From: Candidatus Eremiobacterota bacterium
GTDB lineage: Bacteria; Vulcanimicrobiota; CADAWZ01; Ess09-12
DNA length: 61,279 bases
NCBI GenBank assembly: GCA_031082125.1
Contig: JAVHLM010000026.1
Span: 1-61,279 of the forward strand
Direction: 5' to 3'
The position numbers were made by a program, and so were the translations under genes. Positions 27,346-46,479 of this stretch are shown here, in pieces; within the stretch, counting starts at the first letter, position 1; each line of letters begins with the position of its first letter. Under the pieces are notes generated by a model that saw only the letters and a program-made list of their open reading frames with translations, was not told the DNA's origin and did not search any database.

Positions 27346-27377
27346 AAAAAAGGTAACCTCGTGGTTACCTTTTTTTG
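27346..27377 (+). terminator. Strong rho-independent terminator
   Basis: The sequence AGGTAACC-TCGT-GGTTACCT forms an 8-bp stem extended by A/T pairs and ends in seven T residues. It ends the 26165 unit; its GTTAC half at 27364 also lies 9 bp before the first repeat of the next promoter. Confidence 0.85.
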
Positions 27378-27426
27378 TTTTATTTGATTTCCCCGTGAGA
27401 TTTTTCTGAATACTTCACGCTACTAT
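27373..27426 (+). promoter_or_regulatory. TTGAG-repeat (SARP-like) promoter 1
   Basis: The 11-bp-spaced pentamers are TTTTG (27373, weak), TTGAT (27384), GTGAG (27395) and CTGAA (27406). The -10 box TACTAT starts at 27421, so the repeats sit at -48, -37, -26 and -15 from it. No -35 box is present. The start codon follows at 27461. Confidence 0.65.
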
Positions 27427-27460: not shown

Positions 27461-27988
27461 ATGTCAGCAATAGCGCTCAGCAGCTTCACACCGCAAGGCT
27501 CATATCTCCAGGGGACCTCCGCCGTCCCCGCGGGATTTCAGGAATCTTCAGCTTCCCCGGGATCAGCGGCGGCTGACCAGGGCGCCCTCATGCGGGAGCT
27601 TGTATCGCTGGCCGAATCATTCGCGAACCTGGGCGGGATGTTCGGCAGTAATGAAGGAACGGCCACTTTCGGGACGCTCCTCGCTTTCAGCGGTCTTCGG
27701 GGAGAGAACAGCGAGCCGGGCGAATACCAGGACTCAGACGATGACCGGGGCTTCCAGGAAGATTCAGGCTTTGGCGCTTCTGTGGGATTCAGCGGCCTTC
27801 CCGGCTGGGAAGGTACCATGGATACCTCAGGGCTCTCAGAGTTCTCCCGCTATATGAGCACCTATGCTGATTATTTCAACAGCCTTGGCTTCGGCGCTCC
27901 CGTGGGCTTCAGCGGAGAATTTGACACCCTCACCAGTGACGCTGCAGGCTGGTTCTCCCAGGGATGGGATGAGAAAGAAGCCGCCTAG
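27461..27988 (+). CDS. Small Gly/Ser-rich protein with GFSG motifs (regulon member)
   Basis: This 175-residue protein is rich in Gly, Ser, Phe and acidic residues. It contains repeated FSG segments: LLAFSGLRG, VGFSGLPGWEG and VGFSGEFD. The first two resemble the GFSGLDGWG units of the protein at 31972-33108. There is no signal peptide or membrane segment. GGAGGAG lies 7 bases before the ATG. Transcription is from the TTGAG-repeat promoter at 27373-27426, and a hairpin terminator follows at 28198. No known family; possibly a structural or exported protein. Confidence 0.75.
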   Translation: MSAIALSSFTPQGSYLQGTSAVPAGFQESSASPGSAAADQGALMRELVSLAESFANLGGMFGSNEGTATFGTLLAFSGLRGENSEPGEYQDSDDDRGFQEDSGFGASVGFSGLPGWEGTMDTSGLSEFSRYMSTYADYFNSLGFGAPVGFSGEFDTLTSDAAGWFSQGWDEKEAA

Positions 27989-28395
27989 CCACCTTATCCC
28001 TCTGAAACATAAACCCCTCACCGCCCTTCTCCTCCTGTATCCAGTCCCCTTCACGGTTATGCACTTTCATGGGCATCACGGTAATTCTCATTGTTGAATG
28101 GCCTGGAGGTGCCCATGTTTCCAGATTATGTCCGCCATGTTACCCGTTTGTAAACAAAGGAGGCCTCCCTTGGCTCTTCCATGAGGCTTAAAAATGGCAT
28201 TCATGGTCTCTGCCGTGCCATGAATGAGGTCTTTTTCTATTCAATCCTTCACCCGCAGGTGGAAAGCTTCTTTTGAATCCCTTCTCACCTCTCTGTATAA
28301 GCCAGGACCGAAATGTTAACAGAGAAACCCAGATGTTACATGTGTGAATAAAGATTTACAGAAGTGAAAAGATCTTTAACATGAAACTTACTAAT
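27989..28395. other. Gene-free leader and spacer
   Basis: No convincing gene. It holds a stem-loop terminator at 28198 and AT-rich sequence before promoter 2. A 12-codon frame at 28115-28153 has a GGAGGT site but no other support. Confidence 0.5.
28198..28238 (+). terminator. Likely terminator of the 27461 unit
   Basis: CATTCATGG pairs with CCATGAATG around an 11-base loop, followed shortly by CTTTTTCT. It lies about 210 bases after the stop, so a long 3' untranslated region is implied. Confidence 0.55.
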
Positions 28396-28449
28396 TTGAG
28401 ATTCTCTTGAGAGGTATTTGAGATCCCTTTGAAGGGCGCCGTCTATCAT
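28396..28449 (+). promoter_or_regulatory. TTGAG-repeat (SARP-like) promoter 2
   Basis: This is the clearest example. TTGAG occurs at 28396, 28407 and 28418 and TTGAA at 28429, each exactly 11 bp apart. The -10 TATCAT begins at 28444. The place of a -35 box (about 28421-28426) reads AGATCC, so the promoter should need an activator. Confidence 0.85.
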
Positions 28450-29847: not shown

Positions 29848-29955
29848 TTTCATGTATCCCTGCCCCCCCTTCCCATAATCTTTCACCGGGCACTGCCGGG
29901 GAAGCAGCGGGAATTTAATAAATCACCCCTGAAAATTAACGACACTGTTACTTCT

Positions 29956-30009
29956 TTGAATTTCTTTTGAGCGCTTTTTTAGTATTTTATGGAGAAAGCC
30001 CGGTATCAT
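29956..30009 (+). promoter_or_regulatory. TTGAG-repeat (SARP-like) promoter 3
   Basis: The pentamers are TTGAA (29956), TTGAG (29967), TTTAG (29978) and ATGGA (29989), spaced by 11 bp. The -10 TATCAT begins at 30004. GTTAC lies 9 bp upstream of the first repeat (29947). Confidence 0.75.
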
Positions 30010-30689: not shown

Positions 30690-30743
30690 TTTGGTTTTCT
30701 CTGAGAGATTTTAGGATAATTCATGAGCCAGGCAGGCTATAAT
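30690..30743 (+). promoter_or_regulatory. TTGAG-repeat (SARP-like) promoter 4, degenerate
   Basis: CTGAG (30701) and ATGAG (30723) are at -37 and -15 from the TATAAT at 30738. The -48 (TTTGG) and -26 (TAGGA) positions match poorly. TTTAC lies 20 bp upstream of the first repeat position (30670). Confidence 0.6.
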
Positions 30744-31229: not shown

Positions 31230-31283
31230 TTGAGCTTCCCTTGAGGGATATTTCACTTTTTCATGAGTTCCGTCACCTATAAT
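31230..31283 (+). promoter_or_regulatory. TTGAG-repeat (SARP-like) promoter 5
   Basis: TTGAG (31230), TTGAG (31241), TTCAC (31252) and ATGAG (31263) are 11 bp apart. The -10 TATAAT begins at 31278, 48 bp after the first repeat. GTTAC at 31210 lies 20 bp before the first repeat. Confidence 0.75.
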
Positions 31284-31880: not shown

Positions 31881-31934
31881 TTGAGTTTTCTTTGACCGCT
31901 CATTGAGAAATTCATGAGATAGATATGGTATACT
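31881..31934 (+). promoter_or_regulatory. TTGAG-repeat (SARP-like) promoter 6
   Basis: TTGAG (31881), TTGAC (31892), TTGAG (31903) and ATGAG (31914) are all 11 bp apart. The -10 TATACT begins at 31929. Confidence 0.8.
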
Positions 31935-41121: not shown

Positions 41122-43668
41122 ATGGAGCGCATTCTCATCGTTGATGATGACGAGTACATGCGGAGTAGTCTGCAGATAGAGCTGGAATCCGACGGTTTTG
41201 AGGTCTCTGTCGCGGAAAACGGCACGCAGGCCATAGAGATGGCAAAAAACAGCGCCTTCGACCTCATTCTCTGCGATGTGCGGATGCCGGGGTTGAGCGG
41301 CATTGAAACCATCTCCGCCATCAGGGATGTGCAGCCGGGCACGCGGAGCATCATCATCACGGGCTATGCAAGCCATGATACTCCCATTGCAGCTCTCAGG
41401 CTCAGGGTTGATGACTATCTCATGAAGCCCTTTTCCGGCGAGGAGCTTCTCCGGAGCATACGCTCGACGCTGGTGAGACTCAGGCAGAGTGTCTCTCAAA
41501 GCGAGGGCGTGGCACGGTACCGGAGGAATTTCCTGAAGCTCATCACGGGGATTCTATTCGAAGGGAAGGTCTCCCACCTCATCGGGCATTCCGAGAGGGT
41601 GGCCCATCTCGCTCTTCAGGTCGGCAGGAGCCTGGGGCTTTCGCCGGTGCGCCTCCAGAACCTCTATATCGCGGCGCTCCTCCACGACGTGGGCTATTTT
41701 GATCTTCCCGCACAGCTCATGGAGAAGAAGGAGTTCAGGCCCGAGGATTTTGACCTTGTGAAGAACCACCCTGCCCTTGCCCGCGATCTCCTTGAGCCCT
41801 TCAAGGAGCTTAAGGAAATCGCCACGGTGATCTCATACCACCACGAGCGCTGGGATGGTACCGGCTATCCTTCGGCTCTCGGCGGCGACATGATTCCCCT
41901 CGAGTCGAGGATAATCGCCGTGGCGGAAGCTTATGACAGCCTTGTGAGCGACCGTCCCCACCGCTCAAGGAAGGCAGTGAAAGAAGCCCTCGGCCGGATT
42001 GAAAGCGGCAGCGGCTCATATTTCGATCCGCGGATTGTGAAGCTCCTTCCCTCGGTGATAGAAGTCTATGAGGAGAAGCCCTTTTCCCCTGCTGCCTCAG
42101 AAACTGATGACCGGGAAAGAAGAACGTCGGTGCTTCTCAACCTTGCCGACATCCAGAGGGAGCAGAAAAACCTCGATGTGGCCTGGGAAGCTTACGAAAA
42201 AGCCCTTGAGCTCCTCGAAGGAAGTGAAGCCCACGAGCTGAAAGCCCGCGGGGAGCTCGGCAAGGTGCAGGTCCTTTCAGGGAGGGGATTGCACGAAGAG
42301 GCTCTCCGGAAGGCCCGTGACCTGATAGAATATGCAAAAAGCCATGCGCTCTCTTTCGTGAGGGCCCAGGCCGCCCTTCAGGCAGGCTATTCAGCAATGG
42401 TGCTGGGGCAGTATGAAGGGGTGGAGGGAGAGATTCTCTCGGCGAGGGAGATCTTTGAAGTCTGGGAGTCGGCATATCATATGTGCGAGGCGGACTTTCT
42501 TCTCTCGAATCTTCACTGCCTCAGGGGAGATGACCGCTCACCAGGGTCAATCGCGGCCTTCAATTCTTTTCTCCAGGCGATCCTCTCGAGGCGCTTTTTT
42601 GACATCCTTCAGAAATACCCTGATTTTTCCACGGTTTTTGTCAGGAGGCTCATCAGGCACTCCATAGAACATGGGCTTCTCATCGGGGAGATCACGGCCC
42701 TTTTCAGGGACCAGAAAAGGGCGCCCCTTTCAATTCTCGAGGGACTTGCCAACGACGAGGACCGCGCCGTGAGGCTCCGGGTCCTTGATATTCTCAATGA
42801 GGCGAGGGGAAGGGAAGCCAGGATCCCCGCCGCCGAAGGCAGGAAGGACTCTGCCGATGAGGCTCCGGCCGAAGCACCCGGGGCGGCGCCTCCCGTCAGG
42901 ATATTTTTCTTCGGCAAGTTCAGGGTAATGGCCGGTGAGACTCCTGTTGACGAGGAGGCGTGGGTCACCAGGAAGGCAAAGAGCCTTTTTGCCTATCTCG
43001 TGAGCCGCGGCGGCGAGGAGGTGAGCGAGGAGAGACTGATGGATATCTTCTGGCTCAAGGGGGGGCAGAAAGCCCTCCATTCCCTCCATAACAGCGTTTC
43101 TGTCATAAGAAAGATACTCACTCCCTTTCTGGGGCCACTGGCAAAGAATATCGTCCTTCACAGGAAAGCCAGCTATTATTTCAACAGCGCTCTGGGCTGC
43201 CAGGTGGACGTGGCGGATTTTGAAGAGCTCTTCCACAGGGGGAGGACTTTTTTTGAGCAGAACAGGTGGGACGAGGGCCTTGCGAGCCTGCAGAATGCCG
43301 AGCGGCTCTATATGGGTGATTTCATGGAGGGCTCTTATGATGAATGGAGCGACGAGCTCCGCCTGGCCCTGAGGAACCGTTATATCGAGCTTCTCACGCT
43401 CCTGGGCAAGTATTTCTTCAGGAAGGGCAAGCACGAGGTGAGTATCGACTATTGGAAAAAGCTCCTTGCCTGTGACAACTGCTGCGAAGATGCCTATATC
43501 GGCCTCATGCTCTGCTATGTGGCCATGGACAGGAAGAATGAGGCGGTAAGAGCATACCGCCAGTGCGCCAGGACCCTCCAGGCGGAGCTGGACCTCCCTG
43601 TGCCTGCAAAGGCTGCCGAGATTTACCTCCACCTCATGGAGGGGCAGACGGTGCCCCTCACGATGTGA
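41122..43668 (+). CDS. REC / HD-GYP / SARP-type transcriptional regulator
   Basis: This 848-residue regulator has an uncommon fusion. Residues 1-118 form a receiver with phospho-acceptor Asp52 (LILCDVRMPG), DDD at 8-10, the switch Thr (IIITGYA) and Lys (YLMKPF). Residues about 138-320 are an HD-GYP phosphodiesterase with HSERVAHLA, LLHDVGYFD, KNHP and HHERWDGTGYP, all metal ligands present, so c-di-GMP hydrolysis is expected. Residues 330-500 look TPR-like. Residues 591-690 form a winged helix (FGKFRV, the WVTRKAKSLFAYLVSRGGEE helix) and 694-840 a BTAD domain (VDVADFEELFHRGR), together the SARP/AfsR output. It likely activates the promoters with 11-bp TTGAG repeats nearby. The ATG at 41122 has GAGGGA upstream. 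Confidence 0.92.
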   Translation: MERILIVDDDEYMRSSLQIELESDGFEVSVAENGTQAIEMAKNSAFDLILCDVRMPGLSGIETISAIRDVQPGTRSIIITGYASHDTPIAALRLRVDDYLMKPFSGEELLRSIRSTLVRLRQSVSQSEGVARYRRNFLKLITGILFEGKVSHLIGHSERVAHLALQVGRSLGLSPVRLQNLYIAALLHDVGYFDLPAQLMEKKEFRPEDFDLVKNHPALARDLLEPFKELKEIATVISYHHERWDGTGYPSALGGDMIPLESRIIAVAEAYDSLVSDRPHRSRKAVKEALGRIESGSGSYFDPRIVKLLPSVIEVYEEKPFSPAASETDDRERRTSVLLNLADIQREQKNLDVAWEAYEKALELLEGSEAHELKARGELGKVQVLSGRGLHEEALRKARDLIEYAKSHALSFVRAQAALQAGYSAMVLGQYEGVEGEILSAREIFEVWESAYHMCEADFLLSNLHCLRGDDRSPGSIAAFNSFLQAILSRRFFDILQKYPDFSTVFVRRLIRHSIEHGLLIGEITALFRDQKRAPLSILEGLANDEDRAVRLRVLDILNEARGREARIPAAEGRKDSADEAPAEAPGAAPPVRIFFFGKFRVMAGETPVDEEAWVTRKAKSLFAYLVSRGGEEVSEERLMDIFWLKGGQKALHSLHNSVSVIRKILTPFLGPLAKNIVLHRKASYYFNSALGCQVDVADFEELFHRGRTFFEQNRWDEGLASLQNAERLYMGDFMEGSYDEWSDELRLALRNRYIELLTLLGKYFFRKGKHEVSIDYWKKLLACDNCCEDAYIGLMLCYVAMDRKNEAVRAYRQCARTLQAELDLPVPAKAAEIYLHLMEGQTVPLTM

Positions 43669-43712
43669 GCGATCCCGCTTCGGCCTTTCCGGTTCACAAT
43701 AATGTTACTTTC

Positions 43713-43766
43713 TTGACTTTTCCCTGAGCGCTTTTTGAGCCTTTGATGGTTCCTGTGGGTTATCAT
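43713..43766 (+). promoter_or_regulatory. TTGAG-repeat (SARP-like) promoter 7
   Basis: TTGAC (43713), CTGAG (43724), TTGAG (43735) and ATGGT (43746) are 11 bp apart, and the -10 TATCAT begins at 43761. GTTAC lies at 43704, 9 bp before the first repeat. It is directly downstream of the SARP-type regulator gene. Confidence 0.8.
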
Positions 43767-43796: not shown

Positions 43797-44600
43797 ATGG
43801 GAAACGTGAACCTCACAGCCATAAGGATTGTCATAAACGGCGCGGTGAATGCCCCGCTCCCCGCCCCTGTGATGCAGCCGGCATTACAGTTCAACCAGCG
43901 GCAGGGCGCAGGGTGTGAAGGCCAGGGAAGCGCCGGCCTGGAGCCCTATAACCTCATGCGGGAGCTTGCCGATTTTGGCGGCCCCGGCGGCCCTGCCGGA
44001 ATGAATCCTTCTATGACGGGGAATCAGCAGGCCATGATGGCACCGCTTCTCCAGATGATGATGCAGATGCTGCAGCAGATGATGCAGATGCTGCAGCAAT
44101 GCGGCATGGGCGGCGGCCAGGGAATGGGCTGCCCTGGAGCAGGAGGGGGGCAGGGATGTGCCCCGGGAGAGTCCGGTGGATTCGGTGGTCCCCAGGCTTC
44201 GGGAATGAGCGATCCTTCCAGCCAGGGTACGTCAGGCCTCGCGGACACTGCGGCACGCTGGGGCGGAAGAAGCTTCAAGCCGGGGCAGACCAAACGCTGC
44301 GCTGATTTCGTAAGCACCATGATAGAGCAGTCAGGGATGGCGCCAAGAGGATTCAACCACCCCACGAGCTGCGATCAGCTCCAGAAGTTTGGAGCGCCCG
44401 TGGGGAGGTCGGAGTTGAGGCCAGGCGACGTGGTCTTTTTCGGGAACACCTACCGGCGCGGAAAGTACACCCACACGGGCATCTACCTGGGGAACGGGCA
44501 GTTCGTGCACCGCCCCACTGCCAATAAGCCTGTGAGAATAGACAACATAAGCGACCGCTACTATGCGAGCCGTTTCTCCGGGGGGCGGCGCCTCCAGTGA
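43797..44600 (+). CDS. NlpC/P60 cell-wall hydrolase with Met/Gln- and Gly-rich N-terminus (regulon member)
   Basis: This 267-residue protein has a C-terminal NlpC/P60 peptidase (about 145-265). Its triad is Cys168 in KRCADFVSTMI, His226 in YTHTGIYLG and His238 in FVHRPT. Such enzymes cut the D-Glu to diaminopimelate bond of peptidoglycan. The first 140 residues are low in complexity: a Met/Gln helix with MMMQMLQQMMQMLQQ and a Gly/Cys-rich stretch. No signal peptide is seen, so export must use another route if it reaches the wall. GAAAGGAG precedes the ATG. Transcribed from promoter 7 and followed 63 bases later by a small gene, likely its operon partner. Confidence 0.88.
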   Translation: MGNVNLTAIRIVINGAVNAPLPAPVMQPALQFNQRQGAGCEGQGSAGLEPYNLMRELADFGGPGGPAGMNPSMTGNQQAMMAPLLQMMMQMLQQMMQMLQQCGMGGGQGMGCPGAGGGQGCAPGESGGFGGPQASGMSDPSSQGTSGLADTAARWGGRSFKPGQTKRCADFVSTMIEQSGMAPRGFNHPTSCDQLQKFGAPVGRSELRPGDVVFFGNTYRRGKYTHTGIYLGNGQFVHRPTANKPVRIDNISDRYYASRFSGGRRLQ

Positions 44601-45604: not shown

Positions 45605-46222
45605 TTATGACAGGAAGTGGTTCATGCACCTTATGAGCTCACTGAGCTTCCTCATCTCGGGCGTTTCCTGGCTTACCGCCGGTGAAGCCCCGTTTTCTTC
45701 GCCCCTGGCCATAAGGCTCAACTGCTCGGCGTTTTTTTCAGATTCCTCAATTAGACCGAGGATTCCGGCAAGGTGAGCCTTGGAATAGAGTCCCTCGCGG
45801 GATTTATACTGGCGAAATTCGATGCTCATCATTTTCTTCAGGCTCTTCATGAGCTCCATGCATCTCAAGGTGCTTTTCGGAAGGGGTGCGGCACCGATAT
45901 TCTTATGTTTTTCAGGGTTTTTCGTCGTGAGGAAGTACGCGTCGCATTGTGCAGTACTGTCATACGCCGGCATGATTGTGGAGTGCCTTGGATCTGCCTG
46001 GCCTCTGTCAGTACCTGCCCAGAGGCTGCGGCTCCTGCAGAGATGAGGCTTCGGTGAAGAGTGCATGCTGCCTGGCGGGCTTTCTTCAGGCTCGAAGAAG
46101 TCGGCGGCACAGTAAGTCTTGAGATGCTTTTTCCTGGTGCCTGCCTTTTTTTTCTGGTCAGGCGTCTCTGTGCCGTACGACGGGTGATAGGAATAGGTAA
46201 GATCGATGTGGTGGCTCTCCAT
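45605..46222 (-). CDS. Orphan protein with LKKM helical domain (regulon member)
   Basis: This 205-residue protein starts MESHHIDLTYSYHPSYGTET, with AAGGAGGAGAAGG upstream of the ATG at 46222. The reading frame extends further upstream but into the promoter. The N-terminal 120 residues are basic, polar and probably disordered. The C-terminal part carries LKKMMSIEFRQYKSREGLYSK, paralogous to the 28512 product. No signal peptide. It has a near-perfect TTGAG-repeat promoter on the minus strand, showing that the element is not limited to the plus-strand block. Confidence 0.77.
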   Translation of the reverse strand: MESHHIDLTYSYHPSYGTETPDQKKKAGTRKKHLKTYCAADFFEPEESPPGSMHSSPKPHLCRSRSLWAGTDRGQADPRHSTIMPAYDSTAQCDAYFLTTKNPEKHKNIGAAPLPKSTLRCMELMKSLKKMMSIEFRQYKSREGLYSKAHLAGILGLIEESEKNAEQLSLMARGEENGASPAVSQETPEMRKLSELIRCMNHFLS

Positions 46223-46258: not shown

Positions 46259-46312
46259 ATTGTAGCGGAGCGGGACCATAACGATCTCAAAGCGATCTCA
46301 AACATTTCTCAA
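46259..46312 (-). promoter_or_regulatory. TTGAG-repeat (SARP-like) promoter 9 (minus strand)
   Basis: Read on the minus strand, TTGAG starts at 46312, 46301 and 46290 and ATGGT at 46279, each 11 bp apart. The -10 TACAAT starts at 46264, exactly 48 bp after the first repeat. Confidence 0.85.
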
Positions 46313-46425: not shown

Positions 46426-46479
46426 TTGAGAATTATATGGGCTCTTTTTGGGCTTTTTGTAAGCAGACCCTGGTATTAT
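46426..46479 (+). promoter_or_regulatory. TTGAG-repeat (SARP-like) promoter 8, degenerate
   Basis: TTGAG (46426), ATGGG (46437), TTGGG (46448) and GTAAG (46459) fall at the same spacings before TATTAT (46474). Two of four pentamers are poor, so this is the weakest member. Confidence 0.55.

Follow-up and report, generated by a model that had tools for sequence, protein, structure and literature searches.

A SARP-type response regulator with an HD-GYP domain, and the TTGAG-repeat promoters that it may read, in an uncultured bacterial phylum

Architecture of the regulator and state of its HD-GYP site

SAPR-type response regulators combine a receiver (REC), a winged helix, and a BTAD domain (COG3947). 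AfsR and the other large SARPs of Streptomyces carry an N-terminal SARP module extended by TPR and signal domains, the signal domain of AfsR being a NOD ATPase. In EmbR of Mycobacterium tuberculosis, the DNA-binding and BTAD fold is fused to an FHA domain that reads phospho-Thr, whereas REC-HD-GYP regulators such as RpfG and PA4781 place a receiver before HD-GYP and have no DNA-binding domain. SARP promoters follow a published rule: direct repeats recur every 11 or 22 bp, and 8 bp separate the 3′ copy from the −10 element (PMC10936776, PMC7040171).

Here, we analyzed a stretch of 61,279 nt (the window), which is contig 26 of a 7.43-Mb genome in 69 contigs (G000) from a phylum that counts Eremiobacterota among its named members. 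The gene at 41122..43668 (+ strand; ATG at 41122, stop at 43668) encodes a SARP-type response regulator of 848 aa that runs from REC through HD-GYP, TPR, and winged helix to BTAD in one chain. The domain search proposed in a preliminary description of this DNA matched Response_reg (PF00072; residues 4 to 113, 2.4e-29; 41131..41460), HD_5 (PF13487; residues 149 to 305, 4.5e-39; 41566..42036), and BTAD (PF03704; residues 695 to 826, 3.5e-20; 43204..43599), and Trans_reg_C at residues 611 to 686 with a score (9e-4) below the Pfam curated cutoff. Between HD-GYP and the winged helix lies a helical TPR-like linker (42100..42801; TPR_2/TPR_12), with Pfam repeats at about residues 337 to 406 and helices in the model. 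The winged helix and BTAD output claimed earlier was borne out by structure prediction as well as by the Pfam BTAD match: the AlphaFold2 model of residues 591 to 848 (pLDDT, 94.2; pTM, 0.88) contains both domains, with the winged helix at 42892..43191 (pLDDT, 94) and HSLHNSVSVIRK as its recognition helix, located by helix comparison. The best solved Foldseek matches of this C-terminal model were the AfsR initiation complex (8k60 and 8hvr) and EmbR (2fez and 2ff4), with 254 to 262 aligned columns at 19% identity; 8k60 matched with an E value of 5e-11, and the TM scores of the AfsR and EmbR matches were about 0.8 over the whole C terminus. A full-length model returned the same top matches, its domain arrangement being unreliable (pTM, 0.38).

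The order of an OmpR-like winged helix followed by BTAD places the protein among SARP-type regulators. Unlike in Streptomyces SARPs, where the DNA-binding module is typically N terminal, the module is C terminal here (residues 591 to 848), and REC and HD-GYP stand in place of the NOD ATPase of AfsR. Nor does the protein follow the OmpR/PhoB plan, in which REC is joined directly to a winged helix without BTAD. It shares with EmbR the fusion to a phospho-signaling domain, but that domain is a His-Asp relay receiver, accompanied by HD-GYP, rather than FHA. With SAPR-type regulators it has in common a receiver and a SARP module in one chain, and it differs from them in the HD-GYP and TPR block in between. 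A literature search found no HD-GYP fusions to BTAD or SARP, which is weak evidence.

The receiver is intact, as first described for Asp52: its signature is complete (acidic pair D9 and D10, phospho-Asp D52, T80, and K102), and D9, D52, T80, and K102 are invariant across 11 homologs, with D10 changed to Glu in one. The HD-GYP domain had likewise been described as having an intact active site, a claim contradicted by the alignment with solved HD-GYP structures (4mcw, 4r8z, and 5z7c). H156, H188-D189, H216, H240-H241, and GYP are retained, so that HD, HH, and GYP are all present, but Tyr replaces the catalytic Lys of HDxGK (HDVGY) and Glu replaces the metal-site Asp of VAD (VAE). The Lys is absent from every HD-GYP-bearing homolog compared, and the Asp is retained only in G006:C258. 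Within G000, two paralogs are missing further metal residues: the contig 28 paralog has HN in place of HD, and the contig 11 paralog has LH in place of HH and lacks the His of the KNHP motif. Among relatives, G028:C434 retains HD-GYP, and G032:C3, which keeps its REC and SARP parts, has only a vestigial remnant. G028:C11 and G038:C129 have lost the core and kept REC, winged helix, and BTAD, which brings them near the SAPR plan; HD-GYP therefore does not seem to be needed for SARP output. The original model, in which an active phosphodiesterase lowers c-di-GMP while the same chain changes transcription, draws on the retained motif residues and on a core homologous to V-cGAP3 (5z7c) and PA4781 (4r8z). 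Given the two replaced canonical residues and the decay or disappearance of the domain in proteins whose REC and SARP parts stay, we regard this full model as unlikely, and its c-di-GMP component is weak.

TTGAG-repeat promoters of the window and their targets

TTGAG pairs in the window show a spacer peak at 6, corresponding to 11 bp from start to start. Alignment on the −10 element places the unit starts at −48, −37, −26, and −15, with frequent degeneration of the fourth unit, and so leaves 8 bp between the end of the last heptamer and the −10. A scan with a weight matrix extending over the −10 recovered exactly nine sites, compared with 0 to 1 per shuffled window, in agreement with the earlier count of the next gene plus eight further repeat genes nearby. 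The matrix was trained partly on window sites, so the three weak ones count as independent finds: 27373..27426, 30690..30743, and 46426..46479 (all + strand), which were located by the matrix scan in front of the gene starts at 27461, 30785, and 46530, respectively. Both the pattern search and the matrix scan identified the sites at 28396..28449 (three perfect units plus TTGAA; 28512 gene), 29956..30009 (30046 gene), 31230..31283 (31323 gene), and 31881..31934 (31972 gene) on the + strand, and at 46259..46312 on the − strand (three perfect units; gene starting at 46222). The ninth (43713..43766, + strand) belongs to the NlpC/P60 gene at 43797-44600, which, as noted at the outset, starts 128 bp past the regulator stop. 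All nine sites are followed, 36 to 68 nt downstream, by a gene start that has a ribosome site.

The published SARP rule is obeyed by each of the nine and by other G000 sites, as well as by most sites in G006, G028, G032, and G038. AfsR and Streptomyces SARPs share the 11-bp spacing of direct repeats and their 8-bp distance to the −10, and differ in having two units rather than three or four. Common to TTGAG promoters and to a second class described below (GTRAG; loci L160 and L164) is a GTTAC- or GGCAACA-like element that precedes the first unit by 5 to 9 bp, found in the window at 28387-28395, 29946-29955, and 43703-43712.

In contrast to those of Streptomyces SARPs, the window targets are not antibiotic genes. 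Judged by eye, the targets in G000 have no obvious signal peptide, and their sequences are rich in Gly, Ser, and Gln; they include proteins with collagen-like repeats (30046 and 46530), the NlpC/P60 enzyme (43797), and, on contig 20, a carboxypeptidase of family M14 and a protease of family S8. Two G032 targets begin with a signal-peptide-like stretch, and several G032 and G038 targets are alike. The targets of C1:79036 in G000 and of C120 in G032, which come from different families of the phylum, end in the same C-terminal domain (ITGDPHF...GWLQDQA). These features suggest that TTGAG targets are exported or surface proteins. Type III secretion was considered as a linked system and rejected, as FHIPEP (FlhA/SctV family) occurs in 94 of 98 genomes regardless of repeats. 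Across the phylum, many matches to FHIPEP (FlhA) were confined to its C-terminal half, and the open frames that hold them differ widely in length; in G000 these half-matches lie on C38, C31, C6 (58989), C56, C41, and C9, and many relatives have them too.

Evidence on the reader of the repeats

To relate repeats and regulators across 98 genomes of the phylum, we compared site counts with reversed-pattern controls and scored the closest winged-helix-BTAD relative in each. In these genome-wide counts, which rest on pattern searches, G000 had 10 matches to the pattern with a −10 (at most 2 mismatches) versus 0 in the reversed control, to which the three-unit sites of contig 20 add two. The five genomes ranked highest by regulator similarity to the window protein (G000, G028, G038, G032, and G006) held 26 of the 30 excess sites, a value not equaled in 200,000 permutations, although relatedness makes this figure optimistic. 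Among the 12 genomes of at least 5 Mb, the entire net excess fell in the four with the closest regulators (one of 495 possible choices, likewise inflated by relatedness). Although congeneric with G032 and G038, G018, G044, and G050 are without three-unit promoters of the right geometry. The same-order genomes G001 to G004 had no match to the SARP-type C terminus and background sites only. The co-occurrence anticipated in the preliminary description was found, and a check of the 98 genomes for repeat promoters in the absence of any SARP-type protein, which would have spoken against reading by such a protein, did not refute it.

Proximity points in the same direction. Repeat promoters lie at the 3′ ends of regulator genes at five loci in four genomes; the first TTGAG unit is 44 bp past the stop of the window regulator and 50 bp past that of the contig 20 paralog, and the chance expectation for such adjacency in G000 is about 0.0003 cases. 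The regulator 3′ end is overlapped by a two-unit site with a −10 at the right distance in G018:C12 and G050:C244, and the same holds for a site with two perfect units in G026:C73. G028:C434 has its site upstream of the regulator, G038:C129 has one that is divergent from the regulator gene, and G028:C11 has one 2.6 kb downstream; repeat sites also occur in G032 and G006, none of them within a few kilobases of the closest regulator. Regulators beside TTGAG sites have in common the residues H-S-L-H-N in the recognition helix and a turn that is shorter by one residue than in the usual RQSLYAALSHMR type; in G006:C258, H-x-L-H-N is retained but the turn is not shortened. We rejected the idea that the HSLHN helix is limited to genomes with three-unit sites, since G018, G050, and G026, each with a TTGAG site of two perfect units at a regulator 3′ end, carry it too. 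Shorter SARP-type regulators with a kinase-like or GAF-like start in place of the receiver and an HSLHN helix were observed in G018:C12, G050:C244, and G038:C114.

PhoB boxes are also 11-bp repeats near the −10, and OmpR/PhoB-type winged helices use 11-bp repeats. An ordinary regulator of that type, or a special sigma factor, might therefore read the TTGAG units, the SARP link being a by-product of shared ancestry, for which phylogeny is partly controlled here. Such a reader would have to be squared with the −10 spacing, with the adjacency to SARP-type genes in several genomes, with the match between closest regulators and site counts, and with the background-only counts of G001 to G004, and we consider it very improbable. 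Reading of the TTGAG repeats by the SARP-type end, which was the DNA-binding half of the earlier interpretation, is in our view well supported by these sequence comparisons.

Paralogs and a second repeat code

G000 encodes six full-length REC/HD-GYP/SARP proteins, on contigs 26, 20, 28, 19, 5, and 11; identity to the window copy is 46 to 49% for those on contigs 20, 28, and 19 and 30 to 35% for those on contigs 5 and 11. A single-sequence search of genome contigs with the window protein found no relative, whereas an alignment-based search returned eight loci, some of them in bacterium CPR1 and isolate SZAS-1 EREM-KAN-1. Upstream of the window regulator are an EF-G gene and the gene of a 200-aa protein that matched no Pfam family. 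No kinase was found among its neighboring genes, unlike for the contig 20 and 28 paralogs and several relatives: a GAF-HisKA-HATPase kinase (Pfam) precedes the contig 20 copy, kinase-like genes precede those on contigs 19 and 28, and similar genes adjoin the G028 and G038 regulators.

The recognition helices of the contig 20, contig 28, and perhaps contig 19 paralogs resemble that of the window copy. The contig 20 paralog (102488-105034) shares its helix core, HSLHNSVS, and has a perfect site of three TTGAG units at its 3′ end in addition to its own kinase. The window regulator was originally put forward as the best candidate for reading the repeats; geometry, fold, co-occurrence, and adjacency are in keeping with this role, but not with its uniqueness, as the contig 20 protein appears to be an equally good candidate and the window regulator need not be the sole reader. 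That a close paralog, mainly this one, reads TTGAG while the window protein serves another code or acts as a modulator would fit the existence of a second code in G000. We nevertheless judge it a rather unlikely arrangement, given the clustering of nine sites around the window copy, including the one next to its stop.

This second code emerged when the surroundings of the paralogs were scanned, without bias as to sequence, for repeats of 11-bp spacing whose −10 sits at the correct distance. Nearly all sites returned were TTGAG; the others were GTAAG beside the regulator on contig 11 and GTGAG in front of the operon of kinase and regulator on contig 28. GTRAG units with the geometry of TTGAG promoters (11-bp units and the same −10 placement) form eight promoters genome-wide in G000, at C11:48200, C18:79523, C27:40492, C30:76056, C45:46449, C25:117070, C36:57061, and C28:64973. 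Raw matches numbered 13 versus 1 in the control at up to 2 mismatches and 7 versus 0 at up to 1. Four of the targets, two of which are copies of each other, share the C-terminal end WTNKTTGESH...PPRP. The promoters and targets at C30:76056 and C45:46449 are identical, reflecting a recent duplication or an assembly overlap. Near the contig 18 promoter (locus L160, 77500-82500), a long masked or unknown run of N lies antisense to part of a 605-aa frame.

The GTRAG code, which is new in this analysis, hardly occurs in the other 97 genomes, and no close relative of the contig 11 regulator's DNA-binding half is present in any of them. Two of the eight GTRAG promoters adjoin other paralogs, and each paralog may read its own repeat. 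It is possible, at somewhat short of even odds, that duplicated regulators have split into separate codes, with the contig 26 and 20 proteins reading TTGAG, that on contig 11 and perhaps that on contig 28 reading GTRAG, and each governing its own leaderless family of surface or exported proteins. The assignment of paralogs to GTRAG is one that we infer from adjacency only.

From the computed architecture, fold, promoter geometry, and regulator-repeat link across genomes, we favor, with a probability of about 0.7, a phospho-switched SARP that activates TTGAG promoters and probably shares this code with the contig 20 paralog. Phosphorylation, DNA binding, activation, protomer number, and the role of the middle domains are what we infer in this scheme. 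A histidine kinase would phosphorylate Asp52 of the receiver, and the HD-GYP and TPR middle would relay the signal, mainly as a linker or allosteric module. Several protomers would then line up on three or four TTGAG units, 11 bp apart, in place of a −35 element, and their row of C-terminal winged-helix-BTAD modules would adapt sigma region 4, as AfsR does (PMC10936776), recruiting RNA polymerase to the −10 that lies 8 bp past the last heptamer. The nine window promoters, and others elsewhere in the genome, would thus be turned on, yielding leaderless Gly/Ser/Gln-rich, collagen-like, and wall-hydrolase proteins.

An uncultured phylum thereby gains a promoter code that can be read from sequence, along with a candidate for the protein that reads it, and two coherent regulons of uncharacterized, putatively exported proteins are named in one genome. 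The SARP promoter rule, known from Streptomyces, would extend to receiver-bearing proteins, to a distant phylum, and to four-unit operators, with the caution that HD-GYP in a fusion need not mean an active phosphodiesterase. The paired repeat codes among paralogs are the part most worth experiment; if they are real, paralogs with two codes would constitute a natural series for how SARP recognition helices choose their repeat.
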